DNA from: Sulfurovaceae bacterium | GTDB lineage: Bacteria; Campylobacterota; Campylobacteria; Campylobacterales; Sulfurovaceae | DNA length: 37,996 nucleotides | Assembly (NCBI GenBank): GCA_016744315.1 | Contig: JADGER010000006.1 | Location: 1 to 37,996 of the forward strand | Direction: 5' to 3' | Shown: one piece after another, positions 560 to 10,052 of the stretch | How positions within the stretch are numbered: position 1 is the stretch's first letter | Layout: each line of letters starts with the position of its first letter | Position numbers and translations under genes: made by a program | The notes under the pieces: model-generated | Told to the model about the DNA's origin: nothing | The model's database searches: none | Seen by the model: the letters and a program-made list of their open reading frames with translations, nothing else

Positions 560-1456
560 ATGTTAGATAAAAAAGAGTTACTCGAAGAGATTGAGATATT
601 TGAGAAATTAGATATTATCTATATTTTAGAAGTCTTACAAAATAAACTTGATGATAATAATGAAATTAGAGCAGATAAAACTATAGAATTAGATAGTAAT
701 ATGATTGAGACTATTAAAGAACTGTTATCTGCTCTAGTAAGACATAGCGATAATTTTAGAAAAATTTTCAATTTGGCTTTAGTGGAGATAGATAGTTATA
801 ATAAAGTTGCTAATATTGATATTGAAGATACAAATATTTCTAAAGAAAATATTGAGTTTTTATATGCTTTATTAAAAAACATAGCGTTAAATCATCAAGG
901 CTTTGGCGATAATGTTGCAGGAGATAAAACCACTCATAATACTAATAGTGTAAATATTAGTGGTTCTAACTCAGGAGATATAATCATCAACACAAAAGAT
1001 ATAGATTATGCGTCTAAGTTAAAAAACATACTCTCTAATCTACCTATAGGTAATATCCTATTTAATGCACCCAAAAATATTTCATTGAATGAGTCAAAAA
1101 AAGCAATTTTACGAATCTCGAAACAAAGTATTGATATAAGTAATTTACCACAAAACAATCAACAAATAGAAGAAAAATTAGAAATATACTCTTTTATGTC
1201 TGCAAAACTGATGAGCTTTGATTTTGATATTATGAATAATAATCATGAAGAACAAGCTATTGGTGAAAAAGACTTTACAGAGTGGTCATGGTATATTACT
1301 CCTAAGATACAAAAAGATAAAGGAGTGCTTTTACTTCGTATTAGCATTAGGATACCTTTAGACAAAAATAAAGAAGAGAAAAAAGATTTACCTCTATTTG
1401 AAAAAAATATAGATATTTTAGTTAAAGAAGATAAAATACTAGAAACAGGAGAATAA
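560..1456 (+). CDS. Unknown protein with GDxxxGDK motif linker and C-terminal beta-rich domain
   Basis: A 298-residue protein that I cannot assign to a named family. Residues 1-110 are charged and look all-helical. Residues ~114-145 hold the island's shared motif (GFGDNVAGDKTTHN, then SVNISGSNSGDIII). Residues ~165-298 look like a beta-rich domain containing MSAKLMSFDFDI, EEQAIGEKDFTEWSWYITPK and alternating hydrophobic strands. A similar W-x-W...P layout occurs, as far as I recall, in domains attached to bacterial CHAT/TIR conflict proteins. There is no signal peptide or membrane segment, so it is probably cytoplasmic. The start has AAGGA 7 bases upstream; the gene lies 9 bases after the CHAT gene and 3 bases before the hydrolase, so it is surely co-transcribed. 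An adaptor joining the protease, hydrolase and NLR through the shared motif is an inference from context only. Confidence 0.85.
   Translation: MLDKKELLEEIEIFEKLDIIYILEVLQNKLDDNNEIRADKTIELDSNMIETIKELLSALVRHSDNFRKIFNLALVEIDSYNKVANIDIEDTNISKENIEFLYALLKNIALNHQGFGDNVAGDKTTHNTNSVNISGSNSGDIIINTKDIDYASKLKNILSNLPIGNILFNAPKNISLNESKKAILRISKQSIDISNLPQNNQQIEEKLEIYSFMSAKLMSFDFDIMNNNHEEQAIGEKDFTEWSWYITPKIQKDKGVLLLRISIRIPLDKNKEEKKDLPLFEKNIDILVKEDKILETGE
899..994 (+). repeat. Shared island motif, copy 1 (full form)
   Basis: Encodes GFGDNVAGDKTTHNTNSVNISGSNSGDIIIN-type sequence in the middle of the unknown protein. It contains both halves of the motif: the GD-x-x-x-GDK part and the S-x-x-I-SGSNSG part. The copies match better as protein than as DNA. 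Confidence 0.85.
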
Positions 1457-1459
1457 AAT

Positions 1460-2440
1460 ATGAGTGAAGAGCGATATAAAATTTTTTCAATTAACCCAGA
1501 TGATAAAAATACTCAAATGGATGTCATTTTTATCCATGGTTTAGGTGGTGACAAGTATTCAACATGGCAAAATTCAAATAATGAATCATGGCAAAAGTGG
1601 TTAGCCAAAGATTATAATGTATCAGTTTATTCTATAGCTTATGGTGCAAATATGACTAATTGGGATGAAGATGATATGAAACTCGATGAAACAGCTGATT
1701 TTTTCTTAAGTTCATTAAAAAGTGAAGGTATAGGAGATAAACCTTATATGTTTGTAGTGCATAGCTTAGGAGGATTGCTAGTAAAGAATATTTTATTAAA
1801 AGCACAAAATAGTAAAGATTATAAATACTTATTGGATATGTGTAAATCTATTGTTTTTTTTGCTGTTCCTCATAGTGGGTCAGGATGGGCAACTCTATTG
1901 AATTATGGGAAAGTATTATTAAGAAGTAGTAATCTATTAGAGTCATTATCTAAAAATACACAAGACCTCCATAACTTAACTACAAACTTTAATCAATTGA
2001 TTATTAATAATAAGATTGAAACTTATGTATTTTATGAAACCAAAAAGGTAAAAATAGAAAAAATAATAGGCTTTAAAAGTATAGTTGTAGTCAGTAGAGA
2101 AAGTGCAACGATTGTACATTCAACTAATCAAGTTATTCCACTACCTAAAGACCATATTACTATCTGTAAAATTGATGATAGAGATGATGACTTATATAAG
2201 CATAAAATAAAAAGTATTATGAATAAAACTATAGAGATAAATCAAGTATCAACTCAAAAAGAGTCTCAATCAGATGAACAAAATAATTCATCTACTACTA
2301 CATCCATTCATTATGGTTCTGGAGATATTATTACAGGAGATAAAGTTACTCATAATAACAATAGTGTTAGTATCGGTGGTTCAAATTCTGGTAGTATTGT
2401 AATAGGAAATAATAATAAGGTAAATAAAAATGGAAAATAA
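1460..2440 (+). CDS. SesB-like alpha/beta hydrolase effector with C-terminal shared motif
   Basis: A 326-residue serine hydrolase of the alpha/beta fold. Visible landmarks: the oxyanion strand VIFIHGLGGDKYSTW (residues ~23-36), nucleophile elbow VVHSLGGLLVK with Ser102, the IVFFAVPHSG strand, ETYVFYET, SRESATIVHST, and a late KDHITICK with His232 as the likely catalytic base. This series is characteristic of the SesB-like esterase/lipase domain known as the effector of many fungal NLR proteins. Residues 284-320 carry the motif HYGSGDIITGDKVTHNN / SVSIGGSNSGSIVIG. No secretion signal is seen. AGGAG lies 8 bases before the ATG; the 3' end overlaps the NLR gene by 11 bases, which suggests translational coupling and paired function. 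The natural substrate (phospholipid or other ester) cannot be read from sequence. Confidence 0.88.
   Translation: MSEERYKIFSINPDDKNTQMDVIFIHGLGGDKYSTWQNSNNESWQKWLAKDYNVSVYSIAYGANMTNWDEDDMKLDETADFFLSSLKSEGIGDKPYMFVVHSLGGLLVKNILLKAQNSKDYKYLLDMCKSIVFFAVPHSGSGWATLLNYGKVLLRSSNLLESLSKNTQDLHNLTTNFNQLIINNKIETYVFYETKKVKIEKIIGFKSIVVVSRESATIVHSTNQVIPLPKDHITICKIDDRDDDLYKHKIKSIMNKTIEINQVSTQKESQSDEQNNSSTTTSIHYGSGDIITGDKVTHNNNSVSIGGSNSGSIVIGNNNKVNKNGK
2309..2419 (+). repeat. Shared island motif, copy 2 (full form)
   Basis: C-terminal motif of the first hydrolase: HYGSGDIITGDK, then SVSIGGSNSGSIVIG. The first ~35 bases (cattatggttctggagatat...) are nearly the same as DNA at 2457 in the next gene, so they form a direct repeat about 148 bases apart spanning the gene junction. 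Confidence 0.88.
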
Positions 2441-4496
2441 AGAGATACACCCAAAGCATTATGGTACTGGTGATATTATTTTAGGTGATAGACATGAACA
2501 CCATCATCAAGCCCCTCATATAATCCCCAGAGTCTTAACCAAACAAGTAGGTCTAGCCAACGATATAGACTTCGTAGGGCGAAAAAATGAGCTACAAAAA
2601 GTAGATGAGCTTTTAAATCAAAACGCTATGTTGCTTCTGCTCAATGGTATTGGAGGTATTGGTAAAAGTACATTAGCATCCTATTATCTTAATCAAAAAA
2701 AAGATGAGTTTGATTATTATGGTTTTGTGCAGGTTAATGAAGATATAAAACTAAGTCTTGCTTCTGCTTTTTCTACTTCTCTCGATTTAAAATCAGAAAA
2801 AATTGATGATTTGTTTGCTGAAATAATGAGTAAGCTCAATAATTTAGATAAAAATAAAAAAAAGCTTCTTATTATAGATGATGTTAAAGAGATGGATAAT
2901 CAGAAAGATGAAATAAATACTCTTATGACACTTAAAAATAATGGTTTTCAAATTTTATTCACTTCACGAGAGGTTAAAGATAATATTAAAAATTATCCTT
3001 TACCTATGATGAATGAGGGAGATGCTAGAGATTTATTTTTGAAACATTATGATACGGATGATATAAATAATATTGATATTATTGTAAAAGAGTATTTAGA
3101 TTATCATCCATTATTTATTGAAATGACAGCAAAAACATTATCTTTAAAAAGAAGATTATCACTTAACGAAATTATAAAAAAATTTGAAAGTGAAGAATAT
3201 CAAGTAGTAAAAAGAGATGATATTGAAAGTTACCATAAGTTTTTGGATAATTTTTCTATGAATGACCAAGTTTTACAAAATGAAGAAACACTATTATTTA
3301 TAAAAAAGTTAGCTTTATTACCGTCTATCGAAATTTCTTTTGAGGAGTTGTATAAGTTTTTAGTTTGTGATAATAAAGATAATAAAGATAAATTAGATAA
3401 TTTTTTAATTAAACTTATTCGCAACGGTTGGTTAATTGAATTTAAAGATGGATATAAATTTCATCAAATTTTACGAGATTATATTTTAGAGAGATATAAA
3501 CCTAAATTTGAAGAGATTGAAAAGCAAATAGATTATTGTATATATTTAACAAAAGATAGTTCAGATCCTCAAAAAGCTTTGGACAACAGAGATAATTTAA
3601 TTTATTTTAAATCTATCTTGGCATTTATTGAGAAAGAAGAAATCAAAAATCAAAAAACAGCTACTATATACAATAATTTTGGACTTACTTTTAACTATTT
3701 AAATGAGCCTGATGAAAAAATCATCAGATTATATGAAAAATCTTTAAAAATAAGAGAAAAAATAGAAAATAAAAATACAGCTGAAACACTTAATAACTTA
3801 GCAGGAATATATAGTTTCCTTAAAAATTATAGGGAAGCACAGCTATTTCATTTTAAAGCTTTAAAAATAAGAAAAAAGTGTAAACTTGAAAATGAAATAG
3901 GTTCAAGTTATAATAATTTAGGTGTACTCCTTTACAGAAAAAAAGAATATCATAAATCAAAATTATTTTGGTGTAAATCTATACAAATATGGGAAGGTTT
4001 ACGAGGTAAACTAAATAAGGATTCTAAAGAATTACCTAATCTAAATAGTTTACTGGCTAAAGCTCATGATAACTTAGGAGTATTGTATAAAGTAACTGAA
4101 GAAGTAAGTTCAGTTGAAATTATAAAATTACATGAAAAAGCTTTAAATCTAAGAATAGAATCTTTATCTGAATGGCACATTGATAAGGCTTCAAGCTATA
4201 AAAAATTATCGGACTTATATTTTGAAGAAAAGAATTTTGAAAAATCTTTTGAGTTTATACAGGAATATATAAAAATATATGAAGAGAATTTTCTAAAAAG
4301 TGGTTCTAAATTAGTTGAGGTAAAAGATAGCTTCAAGAAGAGCGTCTTAAATTTATTTCATCAATATCAAGATAAGAATATCTCTATAGGCATAGTTGAT
4401 GAAAGTTTTAATATAGATAGAGAAGATGTTTTGGCTCTTTTCAAAAAGCATGATATAAATTCGGTCGATTCTGAATTAGAAGAGTTTAACAAATAA
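2430..4496 (+). CDS. NB-ARC ATPase with TPR repeats (NLR-like sensor), N-terminal shared motif
   Basis: A 688-residue STAND NTPase. Residues 10-26 are the short form of the shared motif (HYGTGDIILGDRHEHHHQ). The NB-ARC module follows: FVGRKNEL at ~48, Walker A NGIGGIGKST at 72-81, Walker B KLLIIDDV at ~145-152, the arginine sensor LFTSRE near 176-181, a GLPL-like YHPLFIEM at ~225-232, and a winged-helix region ending in an MHD-like FHQILRDY near 344-351. From ~405 to the end there are tetratricopeptide repeats (NNFGLTF..., LNNLAGIYSFLKNY, NNLGVLLYRKKEY, DNLGVLYK...). Such proteins stay ADP-bound until the repeats sense a trigger, then oligomerise. The N-terminal motif, in the place where effector or adhesion modules normally sit, and the 11-base overlap with the hydrolase gene suggest that it recruits the hydrolase. 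Function as a sensor is inferred from family and context. Confidence 0.92.
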   Translation: MENKEIHPKHYGTGDIILGDRHEHHHQAPHIIPRVLTKQVGLANDIDFVGRKNELQKVDELLNQNAMLLLLNGIGGIGKSTLASYYLNQKKDEFDYYGFVQVNEDIKLSLASAFSTSLDLKSEKIDDLFAEIMSKLNNLDKNKKKLLIIDDVKEMDNQKDEINTLMTLKNNGFQILFTSREVKDNIKNYPLPMMNEGDARDLFLKHYDTDDINNIDIIVKEYLDYHPLFIEMTAKTLSLKRRLSLNEIIKKFESEEYQVVKRDDIESYHKFLDNFSMNDQVLQNEETLLFIKKLALLPSIEISFEELYKFLVCDNKDNKDKLDNFLIKLIRNGWLIEFKDGYKFHQILRDYILERYKPKFEEIEKQIDYCIYLTKDSSDPQKALDNRDNLIYFKSILAFIEKEEIKNQKTATIYNNFGLTFNYLNEPDEKIIRLYEKSLKIREKIENKNTAETLNNLAGIYSFLKNYREAQLFHFKALKIRKKCKLENEIGSSYNNLGVLLYRKKEYHKSKLFWCKSIQIWEGLRGKLNKDSKELPNLNSLLAKAHDNLGVLYKVTEEVSSVEIIKLHEKALNLRIESLSEWHIDKASSYKKLSDLYFEEKNFEKSFEFIQEYIKIYEENFLKSGSKLVEVKDSFKKSVLNLFHQYQDKNISIGIVDESFNIDREDVLALFKKHDINSVDSELEEFNK
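2457..2507 (+). repeat. Shared island motif, copy 3 (short form)
   Basis: N-terminus of the NLR-like ATPase: HYGTGDIILGDRHEHHHQ. Only the GD-x-x-x-GD half is present; the IGGSNSG half is absent and replaced by a His-rich run. Close in DNA to copy 2. Confidence 0.85.
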
Positions 4497-4522: not shown

Positions 4523-6814
4523 ATGACCAAACAAATAAACCTACCCCAACTAATCAAAACCTCAACCGATGAAACATTCAGAACAAACCTAAAAACTGTT
4601 GTAGAAAAAAATGTCCCTTTTGGTGAGAGATTGACACTTTATAATCATATCGCAAATAGTATATATACTGATGGTTATACTGTTTTTGCTATCTTTGCTT
4701 GGGAGCTTGGGTTGGATTATCTTGATAGTGATGAGATAGATGGTGTTTTAAAGGCTGATTTGCTTAGGAGTTATGGTTTGGCTTGGATGGAGTTAAATCA
4801 TTTTGATTTATCTATAGAGTATCTCAATGAAGCTATGGAGTTTTTAGATAATCGTGATGATGGGATATTGATAGATATATATTTTGGTCTCTCTATCGTA
4901 TATAAGCATTTGACTGATATGCCAAAAGCCATTGAGTATGCTAAAATGGCTACCCACACTGCTAAAAAAATGAATGATGACTTTGAAATATCAAGAGCTT
5001 ATCTAAATACAGGGAATTTACTCTCTAAGACAAATAGATATGATGAAGCCCTAGAGAATTATCAAAATGCTTTAAAGTATTCTACTATGGATGAAGTCAA
5101 ATCCAATGTTTTGATGAGTTTGGGGCTTTTATATAAAAACACAATGGAGTATCAAAAAGCCAAAGAGACCTTTGATGAGGCAGAGAGACTTTTTAAGAAA
5201 CTAAAATTTGTCAATGAGATGTTTGAGCTTTATATTAACTATGGCATACTCTATACCAAACTAGCAAAGTTTGATAATGCAAAAGAGTATCTTCAAATGG
5301 CATTGGACTATTTTGAAGAGATAGATGATAGTTATAATATGACCATTTGCTATCTAAATCTAGGAAGAGTAGAACAAGATAGAGCTAAATTCTCTACATC
5401 TTTGAAGTATTTTAATAGAGGTGTTGCACTTTGTAATAGTGATGATAATCTTATCTCTTTGGCTTCTCTTTTGTATTATAGTAGAGGAAATATATTTTTA
5501 TCTCTCAAAGAGTATAAGAAGGCTTCTAGTGATTATCAAATCGCTATACAATATGCAAAAGAACAAAATGATACTTCTATGGAGGCTTCTATTAAAAATG
5601 CTTTGGCAGGACTTGAAGCAGATAAAGGAAATATTGATACAGCACAAAAACTCTATCAAGAGATTTTGGAGGTGTTTCAAAAAGATAATAATATTGAAGA
5701 GATAGTGGCTACTTATACAAATATGGCACTTTTATATGAAGAAAAGGCGATGCATCAACTCGCTCATAAAGCATATACTAAAGCTCTTAATTTAGCTCAA
5801 ACAATTGATATACCACAGTTAGAAATATCTATACTTATCAATATGGCTGAGATGTTTGCTAGTATTGCAGATAGTCACAAAGCAATTGAACTCTATAATC
5901 AAACCTTTGAGCTACTAGAAAATTATGACAATGATGATTTACTCTCAAAGTGCTATTTAAATTTGGCTAATATATATGAGAGTATTACAGAGTTTGATTT
6001 GGCTCTTAAATATGCAAAACTAGGACTAGCACTTAAAGAGAAGTTGGGATATGATGATAAGTCACTCTATATCATTTATGATTCATTGGCTCGTATTTAT
6101 GATGGGCTAAAACAAGAAGAGGAAGCTGAGAAATATTACATCAAAACACTTCAAAGTGCAAAAGAGTATAACCCATCACACTATTATGGAATGTTAGTGA
6201 ATTATGGTCTATTTTTGTTTAAATTCAAAGAAGATATTCTAGGTGCAATAGAGTGCTATGACAAGGCAAAAGCCTATTTTGAAAAACATCAAAAATATGA
6301 AACACTTATCGCTATCAATAGTAATTATGCGATGATATACGAGTCTCAATCACAAAGAGAAGATGCCATAAAACACTACAAAAAAGCACTAGAGTATGCT
6401 GATATATTTATCTCTTTTATAGAAGATGAAAACATTATGATGAAATATAGAATTAACTTTGAACATATATACGAAAATTTAGTACAACTCTATATCCAAA
6501 AAAAATCATACAAAAAGGCTTTTGAAACCATAGAAAATCTAAAATCAAGAACCTTTTCAAAGATACTCTCCTCAAACTATTTCCACTCAAATAAAATCCC
6601 AAAAAATCTTTTGGCAAAAGAGAAAAAGCTCAAAAAGGAGTTAAATCAAATACTTTCTAATGATTTAGATATAGTAAATCTCGATAGTATGCTCCAACCC
6701 ATCTATAAAGACTTAAGCAATCTCTATACCAACATGAGAAAGATTGATACAAATTATGTTTTAATCAAAGAGAATAGTATATTAGGGTTTGATAGGATTA
6801 AGGGTGTTTTATAG
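4523..6814 (+). CDS. Long TPR protein lacking the expected C-terminal CHAT domain
   Basis: A 763-residue protein made almost entirely of tetratricopeptide repeats (for example AYLNTGNLLSKTNRYDEALENYQNAL, SLGLLYKNTMEYQKAKETFDEA, CYLNLANIYESITEFDLALKYAKLGLAL), roughly 16-18 units of the 34-40-residue type. After ~600 it carries the helical connector usual in TPR-CHAT proteins (ALEYADIFISFIEDEN, IENLKSRTFSKIL). It ends in YVLIKENSILGFDRIKGVL, close to where the CHAT peptidase domain would normally start. No catalytic domain remains. The start is ATG 26 bases after the NLR stop, with no strong ribosome site, so translation may be coupled. Either it is a stand-alone TPR scaffold or sensor, or a TPR-CHAT gene that has lost its protease. 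The first CHAT gene of the operon might supply the activity in trans; that is inference. Confidence 0.9.
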   Translation: MTKQINLPQLIKTSTDETFRTNLKTVVEKNVPFGERLTLYNHIANSIYTDGYTVFAIFAWELGLDYLDSDEIDGVLKADLLRSYGLAWMELNHFDLSIEYLNEAMEFLDNRDDGILIDIYFGLSIVYKHLTDMPKAIEYAKMATHTAKKMNDDFEISRAYLNTGNLLSKTNRYDEALENYQNALKYSTMDEVKSNVLMSLGLLYKNTMEYQKAKETFDEAERLFKKLKFVNEMFELYINYGILYTKLAKFDNAKEYLQMALDYFEEIDDSYNMTICYLNLGRVEQDRAKFSTSLKYFNRGVALCNSDDNLISLASLLYYSRGNIFLSLKEYKKASSDYQIAIQYAKEQNDTSMEASIKNALAGLEADKGNIDTAQKLYQEILEVFQKDNNIEEIVATYTNMALLYEEKAMHQLAHKAYTKALNLAQTIDIPQLEISILINMAEMFASIADSHKAIELYNQTFELLENYDNDDLLSKCYLNLANIYESITEFDLALKYAKLGLALKEKLGYDDKSLYIIYDSLARIYDGLKQEEEAEKYYIKTLQSAKEYNPSHYYGMLVNYGLFLFKFKEDILGAIECYDKAKAYFEKHQKYETLIAINSNYAMIYESQSQREDAIKHYKKALEYADIFISFIEDENIMMKYRINFEHIYENLVQLYIQKKSYKKAFETIENLKSRTFSKILSSNYFHSNKIPKNLLAKEKKLKKELNQILSNDLDIVNLDSMLQPIYKDLSNLYTNMRKIDTNYVLIKENSILGFDRIKGVL

Positions 6815-6872: not shown

Positions 6873-8882
6873 CTAGCTTGGTACTATCTTCATATTTCTA
6901 AACAACTCTACAAAAAAACCATCAGGTATCATAGCCAAAATATGATAAGCAGTGAAGAAGAGAGTAATAAGTGCTGAATAAAACTGTACTTTTTTTAAGC
7001 TATATATTTTTGCTCCCCATTTATCACCATAGTTTGAATATTTCTTTCTATAAATTAAGATATGACTAAAGCTTATCATAAATAGAATAGTAATCATAGC
7101 AAAAAGAAAATTTGTAATATGCCATATCCCAAAGTTATCAGGATAAGCAAAAAATATTGTTTTGAATGTTGAAGGAAGTTCAAAACCTTCCAAAAGTTGT
7201 GGAAAAAATAGAGGCAAAAAAGTACAAATGAAAACAATTATCAAAGAGTAAACAAACATCAAATAATTTTGAGGAAGTGTTGTTTTCTTTTTCATTTTTT
7301 CAGTTAAATCAGCTTTTTCTGAGGGGATTATAAGCCAAAGAAGTGGTAAGTATATCCATGCAGTTGATTTAATAGAATATCTAAATAAAATCACAGGAAT
7401 AAAAACAGCAAAGAGGAACAAAAAAAGTGTAATTATATCAATAAGTTTCACTATTATCTCTAGCTCTCCATTCGATTCTCTAACCAAAGTATTTATAGAT
7501 TTATTAATAAATTTACTAGTTTTATATTTAGAATTTGTTTTTGATATGCTTGGCATAAGCTCAATGGGATGAAAAATATCAGTAGAAAAAGTTATTTTAT
7601 ACCAATTATTTGGGATCTTATTAATAGATCTCAATGAAAAACTTTTAATAGTTGTAAAGCTTTTTAAGATCCAAATAGGTAGATGAAAGGCTAATAAAAA
7701 TGATACTAGTATAATACAAAAAAAATTATAGTTATTTTTTTGCTTTTCTATCATTTCAGTTGGAGTTAGAATATAGAGATTATTATACCATATAGGTAAA
7801 TATTCTTTTAGTAAATAATCTTGAGGTAAAGAATTTTTTGGAAAAAATATTTCACAAAAAAGATAATAAAAGTCAGTATTAGTGATTATATCTATTATTA
7901 TAAGAATTAGAAAAACTGTCAAACCAAGAATTAATGCTGTACTTAAATGATATTTCTCAAAAAGTGCTAATCCATAATTATCTGATTTCTCTGTTCTCAA
8001 TAAAAACAAAGGAGCAACAATTAATCCAATAATAATATGCCAATAAAAATCATAAGTAAACCAAACATAAAAAGAAATACTTACAGCCAATACCGTCTCT
8101 ACCAATGCTAAAACCGAAAACTGCAACTTATCAGCACTCTCTACCGAGCTTATCCATACTTTATCTTTGAATATCTCTTTGGAAAGTATATTGGAGTTTT
8201 CACTTCGCAAAGCTTCTTGTAAAGGTTTAAAATACTCAACTACCTTTTGAATCGGTATCATAGATTGGGCATCTATCATCACCCCACTAATACCTCCACT
8301 ACTTATATCCCATAGTGGAGTACCACTAAAGCTATTGGCTATAATAGACTTTTTGTCTATGGTAATTTGTTTTTTGCTTTTGGATAAATTACCTTTATAA
8401 CTCCCCTCTATCCAATCATTTATTTGACTATCAAACCCACAAGCGACAAACTCTTGTCCATAGTCAGCAGTCGTGACAAGTGGAATATTAAAAGGTTCTT
8501 CACTCTCTATCTCTAATAATGCAATGTTGTGGATGGAATTAGTCTCGACCACTTTAGCTTTAAATTGTAATTGAGGTTCACGCAGGGCAAAGGTGACATT
8601 TAGAGTCTCAAAATTGGCGATGTTCTCATAGGTAGTGATGATGTAGTTGGAGGTGATTAAAAATCCACTCCCTATAACCTCATTATCACCATTATAAATA
8701 GAGACGATGGAAGCGTTATAGATGTCAGGAATGGAGATATTACTATCTCTTTTATGGTAGATATTGGTTACATTATAGTTTTCATAGTAGTTTTCAGCAT
8801 AGATGGTGCGTTGATTATTGTGTATGACTTTATCACCTGTGATATTGTCACCACTCCCACTATGATTTGATGAATTTTCCAT
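6873..8882 (-). CDS. Trypsin-fold (degenerate triad) membrane protein with N-terminal shared motif
   Basis: A 669-residue protein. Residues 7-43 hold the shared motif (HSGSGDNITGDKVIHNN) followed by RTIYAENYYENY. Residues ~52-235 resemble the trypsin-like peptidase domain used in bacterial conflict proteins: GSGFLITSNYIITTYENIA, HNIALLEIE and NSFSGTPLWDISSGGISGVMID. The Ser motif is kept (Ser196), but the position expected for catalytic His reads Glu86 (ITTYENI instead of TAAHVV) and the Asp position reads Asn119, so peptidase activity is doubtful. From ~254 to the end there are about ten hydrophobic segments, so it is a polytopic membrane protein with its N-terminal domain probably cytoplasmic. 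It converges on the TPR gene and diverges from the second hydrolase. A membrane-permeabilising effector, or a membrane anchor controlled by the motif, is inference. The first ~820 coding bases look richer in GC than the membrane part. Confidence 0.85.
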   Translation of the reverse strand: MENSSNHSGSGDNITGDKVIHNNQRTIYAENYYENYNVTNIYHKRDSNISIPDIYNASIVSIYNGDNEVIGSGFLITSNYIITTYENIANFETLNVTFALREPQLQFKAKVVETNSIHNIALLEIESEEPFNIPLVTTADYGQEFVACGFDSQINDWIEGSYKGNLSKSKKQITIDKKSIIANSFSGTPLWDISSGGISGVMIDAQSMIPIQKVVEYFKPLQEALRSENSNILSKEIFKDKVWISSVESADKLQFSVLALVETVLAVSISFYVWFTYDFYWHIIIGLIVAPLFLLRTEKSDNYGLALFEKYHLSTALILGLTVFLILIIIDIITNTDFYYLFCEIFFPKNSLPQDYLLKEYLPIWYNNLYILTPTEMIEKQKNNYNFFCIILVSFLLAFHLPIWILKSFTTIKSFSLRSINKIPNNWYKITFSTDIFHPIELMPSISKTNSKYKTSKFINKSINTLVRESNGELEIIVKLIDIITLFLFLFAVFIPVILFRYSIKSTAWIYLPLLWLIIPSEKADLTEKMKKKTTLPQNYLMFVYSLIIVFICTFLPLFFPQLLEGFELPSTFKTIFFAYPDNFGIWHITNFLFAMITILFMISFSHILIYRKKYSNYGDKWGAKIYSLKKVQFYSALITLFFTAYHILAMIPDGFFVELFRNMKIVPS
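8754..8864 (-). repeat. Shared island motif, copy 4 (with NYYE tail)
   Basis: N-terminus of the trypsin-fold membrane protein: HSGSGDNITGDKVIHNN followed at once by RTIYAENYYENY. The IGGSNSG half is missing, but the NYYE tail is shared with copy 5 (RKIDAKNYFEKID). Confidence 0.8.
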
Positions 8883-8911
8883 CCTCTATACTCTCCCATT
8901 TGATTACTCTA

Positions 8912-8917
8912 ATTGTA
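8912..8917 (-). promoter_or_regulatory. Possible -10 box (TACAAT) of the trypsin-fold gene
   Basis: On the minus strand TACAAT lies 29 bases before the ATG, with an AGAGGA ribosome site next to the start. No convincing -35 is seen. Confidence 0.3.
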
Positions 8918-8964
8918 CCTACTTATGATAAAAGCTTTTGAGAGGTAGATTTACATTTTGTTGC

Positions 8965-8970
8965 TATAAT
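8965..8970 (+). promoter_or_regulatory. -10 box TATAAT of the second hydrolase gene
   Basis: A perfect TATAAT preceded by TTGC, 29 bases upstream of the ATG at 9000, with AAAGGG acting as ribosome site. The second hydrolase therefore has its own promoter, separate from the NLR operon. Confidence 0.6.
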
Positions 8971-8999
8971 AGAATTTAATTTTTGATTAAAGGGTAGAG

Positions 9000-10052
9000 A
9001 TGAGCGAACGATATATAATTGAAAAAATAGCAAAGAAAGATAATGGAGATTTTGATGTAGTTTTTATCCATGGGTTGGGTGGAGATAAATTTACAACATG
9101 GCAAAACTCAGAAGGACGATCTTGGCAAGATTGGTTGGTACATGATAATGAAAATATGTCAGTTTGGACTATAGGCTATGGAGCTAATAAAACCAATTGG
9201 ATTGAAGATGATATGTCTTTGGATGATACGGCAGGTTTTCTATTGGGGTCATTACAAAGTAAAGGTATTGGAGAAAAGCCTTATATGTTTATTGTGCATA
9301 GTCTTGGTGGGCTATTGGTCAAAAAAATCCTGCTTAAAGCACAAATAAGTGATGAATATGAAAATATTTCAACCATGTGTAAATCTATCATCTTTTTTGG
9401 TGTACCACATAATGGTGCAGGATGGGCATCTTTGTTTAATTATGCTCAAACATTTTTGCGAACGAGTGATGTATTTCAGGCACTCTCAAAAGATACAAAC
9501 TCTCTTCATCAATTGGCACTTGATTTTAATACTCTAGTGAGAAAAAATAAAATTAACACTTATGTATTTTATGAGACCAAGGAGATCCGTGCCAAGGGTT
9601 TACTTGGTTGGTTACATCTCAAAAAAGGAATAAAAGTTGTGAGTCAGCAGAGTGCCACACAAGTACACTCTACTAACACACCTGTAGCAGTCCACCAAGA
9701 CCATATTTCCATGTGTAAGCTTGAACCAGAATTTTATCAAACTCATATATTACCAATTATGAAAAAAGAACATCCTCAAAAAGAGAAGGAAAAACAATCA
9801 CAACAAGAAAGCAATAACCCTAACAATATATCAAATACAACGACTATCACACAAACACATTCAGGAAAGGGTGACAATATAGGTGGTAATAAAATCGTCA
9901 ATAATAATGGTATCTCTATAGGTGGTAATAATACGGGTGCAGTTGTGTCGGGTGATGCTAACAGTGTCACAATAGAGAACAATGAACGCAAGATTGATGC
10001 GAAGAATTATTTTGAGAAGATTGATAATAATGGTAGTATGAATTTTGATTAA
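9000..10052 (+). CDS. Second SesB-like alpha/beta hydrolase with C-terminal shared motif
   Basis: A 350-residue paralogue of the hydrolase at 1460, identical at more than half of positions by eye across the catalytic domain. It keeps VVFIHGLGGDKFTTW, the elbow IVHSLGGLLVKK (Ser101), IIFFGVPHNGAGW, TYVFYETKE, SQQSATQVHST and HQDHISMCK (His235). After a KEKEKQSQQE linker, residues 287-325 carry THSGKGDNIGGNKIVNNN / GISIGGNNTGAVVSG, and the last ~22 residues read RKIDAKNYFEKIDNNGSMNFD, which echoes the N-terminal RTIYAENYYENY of the divergent membrane protein. It is preceded by its own TATAAT box and AAAGGG ribosome site. The shared motif and tail suggest that it works with the divergent trypsin-fold protein and perhaps with the NLR upstream. 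The substrate is unknown. The protein is probably cytoplasmic because no signal peptide is seen. Confidence 0.88.
   Translation: MSERYIIEKIAKKDNGDFDVVFIHGLGGDKFTTWQNSEGRSWQDWLVHDNENMSVWTIGYGANKTNWIEDDMSLDDTAGFLLGSLQSKGIGEKPYMFIVHSLGGLLVKKILLKAQISDEYENISTMCKSIIFFGVPHNGAGWASLFNYAQTFLRTSDVFQALSKDTNSLHQLALDFNTLVRKNKINTYVFYETKEIRAKGLLGWLHLKKGIKVVSQQSATQVHSTNTPVAVHQDHISMCKLEPEFYQTHILPIMKKEHPQKEKEKQSQQESNNPNNISNTTTITQTHSGKGDNIGGNKIVNNNGISIGGNNTGAVVSGDANSVTIENNERKIDAKNYFEKIDNNGSMNFD
9858..10049 (+). repeat. Shared island motif, copy 5 (full form plus NYFE tail)
   Basis: C-terminus of the second hydrolase: HSGKGDNIGGNKIVNNN, GISIGGNNTGAVVSG, then RKIDAKNYFEKID. This is the only copy that shows all three blocks in order, and it links the forms seen in copies 1-2 with that in copy 4. 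Confidence 0.85.

Follow-up and report, generated by a model that had tools for sequence, protein, structure and literature searches.

A tagged pseudo-trypsin fused to a membrane protein of an undescribed family in an NLR-linked gene cluster of a Sulfurovaceae bacterium

Results

The stretch of DNA analysed in this study (hereafter the window) comprises 37,996 nucleotides of a contig from a Sulfurovaceae bacterium. At 6873..8882 on the minus strand it contains a chimeric gene with an ATG start, encoding a 669-aa protein in which the ORF, the Trypsin_2 match and a membrane-family profile delineate a short tag, a pseudo-trypsin domain and a membrane domain. The frame of 669 codons is free of stops and ends exactly at these bounds, and the overall observation of the initial annotation, a trypsin-like domain with replaced catalytic residues joined to a membrane part, was confirmed. 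By coordinates, a gap of 117 bp (8883..8999) lies between this gene and the divergently transcribed gene of an alpha/beta hydrolase. Promoter-like sites around the chimera gene were counted at chance level, and no terminator-like site was found near it. The exact fusion of tag, dead trypsin and membrane domain was seen a single time, and a scan of genome contigs with the whole chimera gave no matches.

The neighbours of the chimera gene suggest an immune gene cluster. On the plus strand, the gene at 560..1456 encodes a protein of no Pfam family with an internal tag (893-1000), possibly a new sensor or adaptor of the island. It is followed by alpha/beta hydrolase 1 (1460..2440, plus strand; Pfam DUF676, E 2.1e-6), which carries the tag near its C-terminus (2309-2416, tag HMM) and the gene of which overlaps that of an NLR with NB-ARC and TPR domains (2430..4496, plus strand; Pfam NB-ARC, E 1.4e-12) and an N-terminal tag (2457-2516, tag HMM). 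Alpha/beta hydrolase 2, the divergent neighbour of the chimera (9000..10052, plus strand), also carries the tag near its C-terminus (9858-9980, tag HMM). The two hydrolases are 53% identical to each other, and both are matched by the PADLOC model DUF626_VIII (E 6e-22 for 1460-2440 and 6e-17 for 9000-10052). A TPR protein (4523-6814, plus strand) ends just before the convergent chimera, at the point where a CHAT domain would begin in the architecture expected of such proteins. The C-terminus of a CHAT domain lies at 2-550 of the window. It may be that this end of the TPR gene was displaced by the chimera and hydrolase 2.

The tag is thus present in five genes of the window, and in the chimera it corresponds to HSGSGDNITGDKVIHNN at aa 7-23 (8814..8864, minus strand). 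An HMM built with neither trypsin copy, that is, leaving out both the chimera and its nearest homologue in genome G250, matched the chimera tag with an E value of 3.2e-10, whereas 780 shuffled proteins gave no value better than 0.087, and this bears out the initial claim of a shared motif. Tag models made from copies outside the window still ranked the chimera first, and they missed one of the four other tagged window genes when the G250 trypsin copy was included and two of the four when it was excluded. Among 60 relatives searched with the tag profile, 16 genomes had a match at E <= 0.5. Many of these matches were weak, the strong ones being those in the own genome (G000), G250, G081 and a few others. 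A sixth site in the own genome lies off the island, at the very C-terminus of a COR-A/COR-B protein (L062:698-1948, minus strand, contig C252). In G250, an NB-ARC/TPR NLR with the same tag is encoded on a contig other than that of the dead-protease gene. A short protein of genome G024 with one membrane helix (L068:7342-7614, minus strand) also has the tag near its C-terminus.

A second shared element, NNQRTIYAENYYE, was found at aa 22-34 of the chimera (8781..8819, minus strand) by local alignment to the C-tail of hydrolase 2. Its pattern, NNxRxIxAxNYxE, is common to the chimera linker and the tail of this divergent hydrolase, and the alignment score was reached by 4 of 5000 shuffles, and by 0 of 5000 for the G250 version.

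The Trypsin_2 match spans aa 71-200 (8283..8672, minus strand; Pfam and alignments) with an E value of 2e-6 and 29.1 bits against the curated cut-off of 27.6, and the chimera head accordingly belongs to the trypsin-like (chymotrypsin-fold) family PF13365. The best PDB match of the chimera by sequence was the pseudo-protease domain of MamO (E 0.0019), the His of which lies opposite Glu86. The NCBIfam MamO equivalog model gave 38.5 bits against a cut-off of 800, which leaves the chimera outside the MamO family, and the PADLOC families RT-Protease_XI (E 2e-8) and Avs1b (E 4e-7) matched the head weakly. In the AlphaFold model, the first lobe (aa 58-131) was usable with a pLDDT of about 70-78, the remainder being below 50. 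This lobe matched MamO, DegS and MucD, with MamO as the nearest PDB match in Foldseek, and its matches to DegS and MamO had a Z score of about 10 over 74-84 residues. The structural comparison covers this first lobe.

In the alignment with conflict-type trypsin domains, E86 aligns to His57, N119 to Asp102 and S186 to the nucleophile, and the placing of Glu86 and Asn119 at the His and Asp positions by the initial annotation is correct. The Ser motif had been called normal; the nucleophile Ser186 is indeed kept, but the oxyanion-hole Gly, two residues ahead of it, is replaced by Ser184. Of the four key positions, those of His, Asp and the oxyanion Gly are thus changed, and the chimera lacks the triad and oxyanion Gly of an active trypsin-like serine peptidase, with Ser186 as the sole key residue kept. 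At the sequence level we found no support for another His or Asp at the active site, and the only spare His in the first lobe, H118, lies beside N119 and is unable to fill the place of His57.

The relatives used for this comparison were the trypsin domains of 11 of 14 plasmid records and three DegP-like proteins. Three plasmid records (H6, H9 and H15) of the same species as included rows were left out, and an ordinary secreted trypsin (L003), the second half of which failed to align, was dropped. Asp, Gly and Ser are present in all of the 11 plasmid-encoded domains, which are more distant from the chimera, and His in 10 of the 11, the lone exception being L073 with Asp at the His position; the three DegP-like rows have intact catalytic positions. 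The nearest homologue, from G250 (L002), is 58% identical to the chimera over the trypsin module and has Ala, Asn, Gly and Ser at the key positions. Since both known close copies have lost His and Asp and the more distant relatives are intact, the loss is not a private mutation of the window gene. Ser186 and the following Gly are kept in both copies, as are the stretches SGGISG and SMIPI of the C-terminal lobe. Comparison of the two heads gave dN 0.33, dS 1.5 and a dN/dS of about 0.22 (227 codons, with dS near saturation), which fits a maintained protein and purifying selection on the dead module. The dead form of the head therefore looks selected, considering that G250 has lost both residues as well.

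The G250 homologue carries the tag and the dead protease ahead of an nSTAND1 NTPase (E 1.2e-99), and the head thus occupies the N-terminus of both fusions. Of 397 genomes of the phylum, 3 contain the trypsin module at E <= 1e-6, in one case as a fragment of 30 residues, and scans of viral contigs for trypsin relatives found none. A PF13365 search of the own genome, which returned one Do-like protease and missed the window gene, is not exhaustive for divergent copies.

The membrane domain covers aa 242-669 (6876..8159, minus strand), as defined by an HMM made without the window sequence and by a standalone copy from the same genus (G833, L128). Hydropathy analysis gave eight peaks above 1.3 in aa 255-652 and none in aa 1-240, where the maximum over 19 residues was 1.02 and there is no hydrophobic segment. 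The membrane part proposed initially is therefore present, but its count of about ten helices is not clearly matched by the eight peaks. The domain begins at aa 242, at the same point where the standalone relatives start. A profile of 17 other members, made without the window, matched the chimera with an E value of 4.3e-48 (150 bits), against 3.3 bits for the best of 500 shuffles, and E262, N426, P444, R501, K505 and P513 are invariant in all 18 rows. Neither aa 240-669 nor the relatives gave a convincing match in Pfam, NCBIfam, PHROGs, PADLOC or PDB, and the fold may still be a known one. Judging from these sequence comparisons, the membrane half is thus a polytopic membrane protein that is complete in itself and the family of which is undescribed and unmatched in the libraries searched.

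Standalone members were found in Sulfuricurvum (L014 and L023), Hoeflea (L022), a Rhizobium etli plasmid (L024) and a phage contig (L031), and those examined have no evident signalling head. The same-genus copy L128 is identical to the window protein at 41% over 270 aa and at 51% over 76. Within the phylum, the membrane query matched 5 of 397 genomes at E 0.001 (the own genome, G532, G191, G530 and G432); the marginal matches in G191 and G530, glycosyltransferases by eye, were rejected as chance. A richer membrane profile matched 4 of 43 close relatives, own genome included, and in a Pseudomonadota sample of 398 genomes, 17 had a member at E 1e-5, including G534, which had already contributed to the profile. 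Six standalone members (L104, L105, L109, L022, L031 and L128) have long near-repeats rich in Ala, Gly and Val in the middle of the protein, which the window copy lacks, and those of L128 coincide with short DNA tandem repeats.

The genomic context of the membrane family is mixed. The Hoeflea copy is carried by a prophage, where an Abi_alpha gene (PF14337, E 1.4e-11) immediately precedes it and lysis-type phage genes are nearby. On the phage contig the copy is flanked by tail genes, and on the Rhizobium plasmid the Septu genes PtuA and PtuB precede it by about 2 kb; at a fourth such locus (G822, L030) no defence neighbour was seen by eye. The Pseudomonadota neighbours examined, 26 hand-chosen proteins from 16 of 20 loci fetched, were mostly housekeeping (ClpB, rpoD, IPP transferase and others). 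Among these 26, PADLOC matches at 1e-10 comprised three to PDC-M37B/DolB, which are most likely ClpB-type ATPases, one to MzaA and one to cyclase models. The membrane family is therefore not specific to defence, and these ordinary neighbours weaken the candidate role of the membrane half as a dedicated phage-defence effector. Three standalone Campylobacterota copies adjoin a toxin- or antitoxin-like gene (L014:9737-10102, L128:2295-2603 and L129:6405-6680), the first being Gp49-like by Pfam and the other two having been judged by eye only.

Discussion

Because the head and the membrane half each occur apart, with separate histories, the chimera is a fusion of two parts, an adaptor head linked to the NLR and a complete membrane protein, the family of which is undescribed. 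A non-proteolytic role of the trypsin-like head is well supported by comparative sequence evidence, considering the change at three of four key positions, the loss of His and Asp in G250 as well, the reuse of the head on a STAND NTPase and the apparent purifying selection. The further proposal of the initial annotation, that the pseudo-protease gates a membrane effector driven by assembly of the motif, is plausible but unproven. The effector part of it is an inference, since the membrane part also stands alone in many genomes without defence neighbours.

The closest structural parallel is MamO, described (PMC4794232) as a magnetosome pseudo-protease with a C-terminal TauE-like membrane domain. 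Both proteins have a non-proteolytic trypsin-like domain ahead of a polytopic membrane domain. However, MamO keeps His and Asp, has Thr for Ser and binds metal, whereas the chimera has lost His and Asp, keeps Ser, gave no TauE-family match and is linked by its tag to an NLR.

Amyloid signalling motifs associated with bacterial NLRs (BASS) were reportedly described by Dyrka in 2020. Bacterial NLR pairs with amyloid motifs are presented in two papers (PMC12261475, PMC7889193), in which BASS comprises ten motif families and the effectors carry the motif at the C-terminus. The island resembles such a pair in the placement of its motif, at the N-terminus of the NLR and near the C-terminus of the product of the overlapping gene (1460-2440), and both hydrolases carry the tag near the C-terminus. 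In contrast, the chimera tag is N-terminal, ahead of the pseudo-protease.

The chimera also differs from systems in which a trypsin-like protease is active. In a CARD-NLR-like system (PMC13236601), active trypsin-like serines are needed, as LypA S262A and LypC S296A fail. Such systems, with gasdermin or other effectors, resemble the island in that a single pathway comprises an NLR-like ATPase, a trypsin-like domain and an effector of death that acts on the membrane or otherwise, but there the active protease is separate from the effector, whereas the chimera has a dead protease and a membrane part in one chain. In nuclease-protease pairs of Hachiman, AVAST, Lamassu and DRT, trypsin-like cutting frees the nuclease (PMC12799240). 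The trypsin heads of Avs1b, RT-Protease and STAND proteins are related to the chimera by the weak family matches and by a GFSGxPxW-like signature, and differ in the near-complete retention of catalytic residues in the trypsin relatives examined. The chimera thus fits none of the compared systems fully and is a variant of NLR-linked conflict systems in which the adaptor is a dead protease and the membrane part comes from an undescribed family. A literature search of titles and the beginnings of abstracts, covering few subscription papers, found no NLR-tagged dead trypsin fused to a membrane domain.

Building on what was computed, namely that the tag is shared, that catalytic residues are lost, that the gene has a two-part origin, that the dead module looks selected and that the C-terminal half is a membrane protein, we tentatively favour a model with a little less than an even chance of being right, in which the NLR recruits the chimera via the tag, the dead protease scaffolds and the membrane half acts. 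The NLR would sense an invader and oligomerise, and its N-terminal tag would nucleate co-assembly with the tags of the two hydrolases and the chimera, gathering these proteins at the inner membrane. The dead protease would transmit or scaffold the assembly instead of cutting, and clustering would switch the membrane part of the chimera, most likely perturbing the membrane, while the hydrolases would attack lipids or other targets. The simplest topology would place the head in the cytoplasm, where it could meet the NLR, because the head, which lies ahead of the first membrane segment, is itself free of hydrophobic segments. Further points in favour of the model are the tag on the COR-domain protein, the second element in common with hydrolase 2, the tagged NLR of G250 and the place of some relatives of the membrane half beside Abi_alpha, among phage tail genes or close to the Septu genes. 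Against the model stand the N-terminal place of the chimera tag, which is that seen on receptors and differs from the C-terminal place in amyloid-motif effectors, the mostly ordinary gene neighbours of the membrane family in the Pseudomonadota sample and the single occurrence of the exact fusion. A more specific version, in which a protease-to-pore cascade has collapsed into one chain, with the protease of an NLR pathway giving up catalysis to couple a templating tag allosterically to a membrane effector of a new family, and with tag assembly opening or disrupting the membrane without cleavage, seems rather unlikely.

The main alternative, since the head takes the place of the output domain of STAND receptors in both fusions, is that the membrane half serves as sensor or anchor, detecting a membrane cue, which the tag would relay to the hydrolases as the damaging agents. 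The N-terminal tag, placed as on NLRs, and the second element, which pairs the chimera specifically with the divergent hydrolase, are consistent with it. However, nothing known shows sensing by this membrane family and its standalone members have no evident signalling head, and we regard this alternative as unlikely. Less probable still is a decoy or peptide reader, in which the old cleft would bind phage protease inhibitors, proteases or peptides and trigger the membrane part. Inactive enzyme copies in such conflict systems have been proposed as decoys (PMC7159879), and the conservation of SGGISG and SMIPI in both copies is compatible with such putative ligand binding.

It is also improbable, to a somewhat greater degree, that the gene is a decaying remnant in which a broken protease gene was joined by accident to a membrane gene. 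The rarity of the module in the phylum and the adjoining TPR gene, seemingly without its CHAT end, would agree with decay, but the open frame, the low dN/dS of the head and the conservation of the tag and the membrane signature residues argue for a maintained gene. Finally, it is very improbable that the domain still cuts by unusual chemistry, for instance with Glu86 or with Ser only, as none of His, Asp and the oxyanion Gly is left in the chimera and G250 has Ala at the His position, despite the Ser and Gly kept in both.

In summary, we favour, tentatively, recruitment of the chimera by the NLR through the shared tag, with a scaffolding dead protease and an acting membrane half. The usual reading of trypsin-like domains in the NLR-type defence of bacteria is that they are active proteases by which other effectors are switched on. 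If the proposed model is true, a selected dead trypsin fold would serve in bacterial immunity as a portable adaptor head, carried on a STAND NTPase in one case and on a membrane protein in the other, the latter belonging to a family that is widespread yet described by no library searched.
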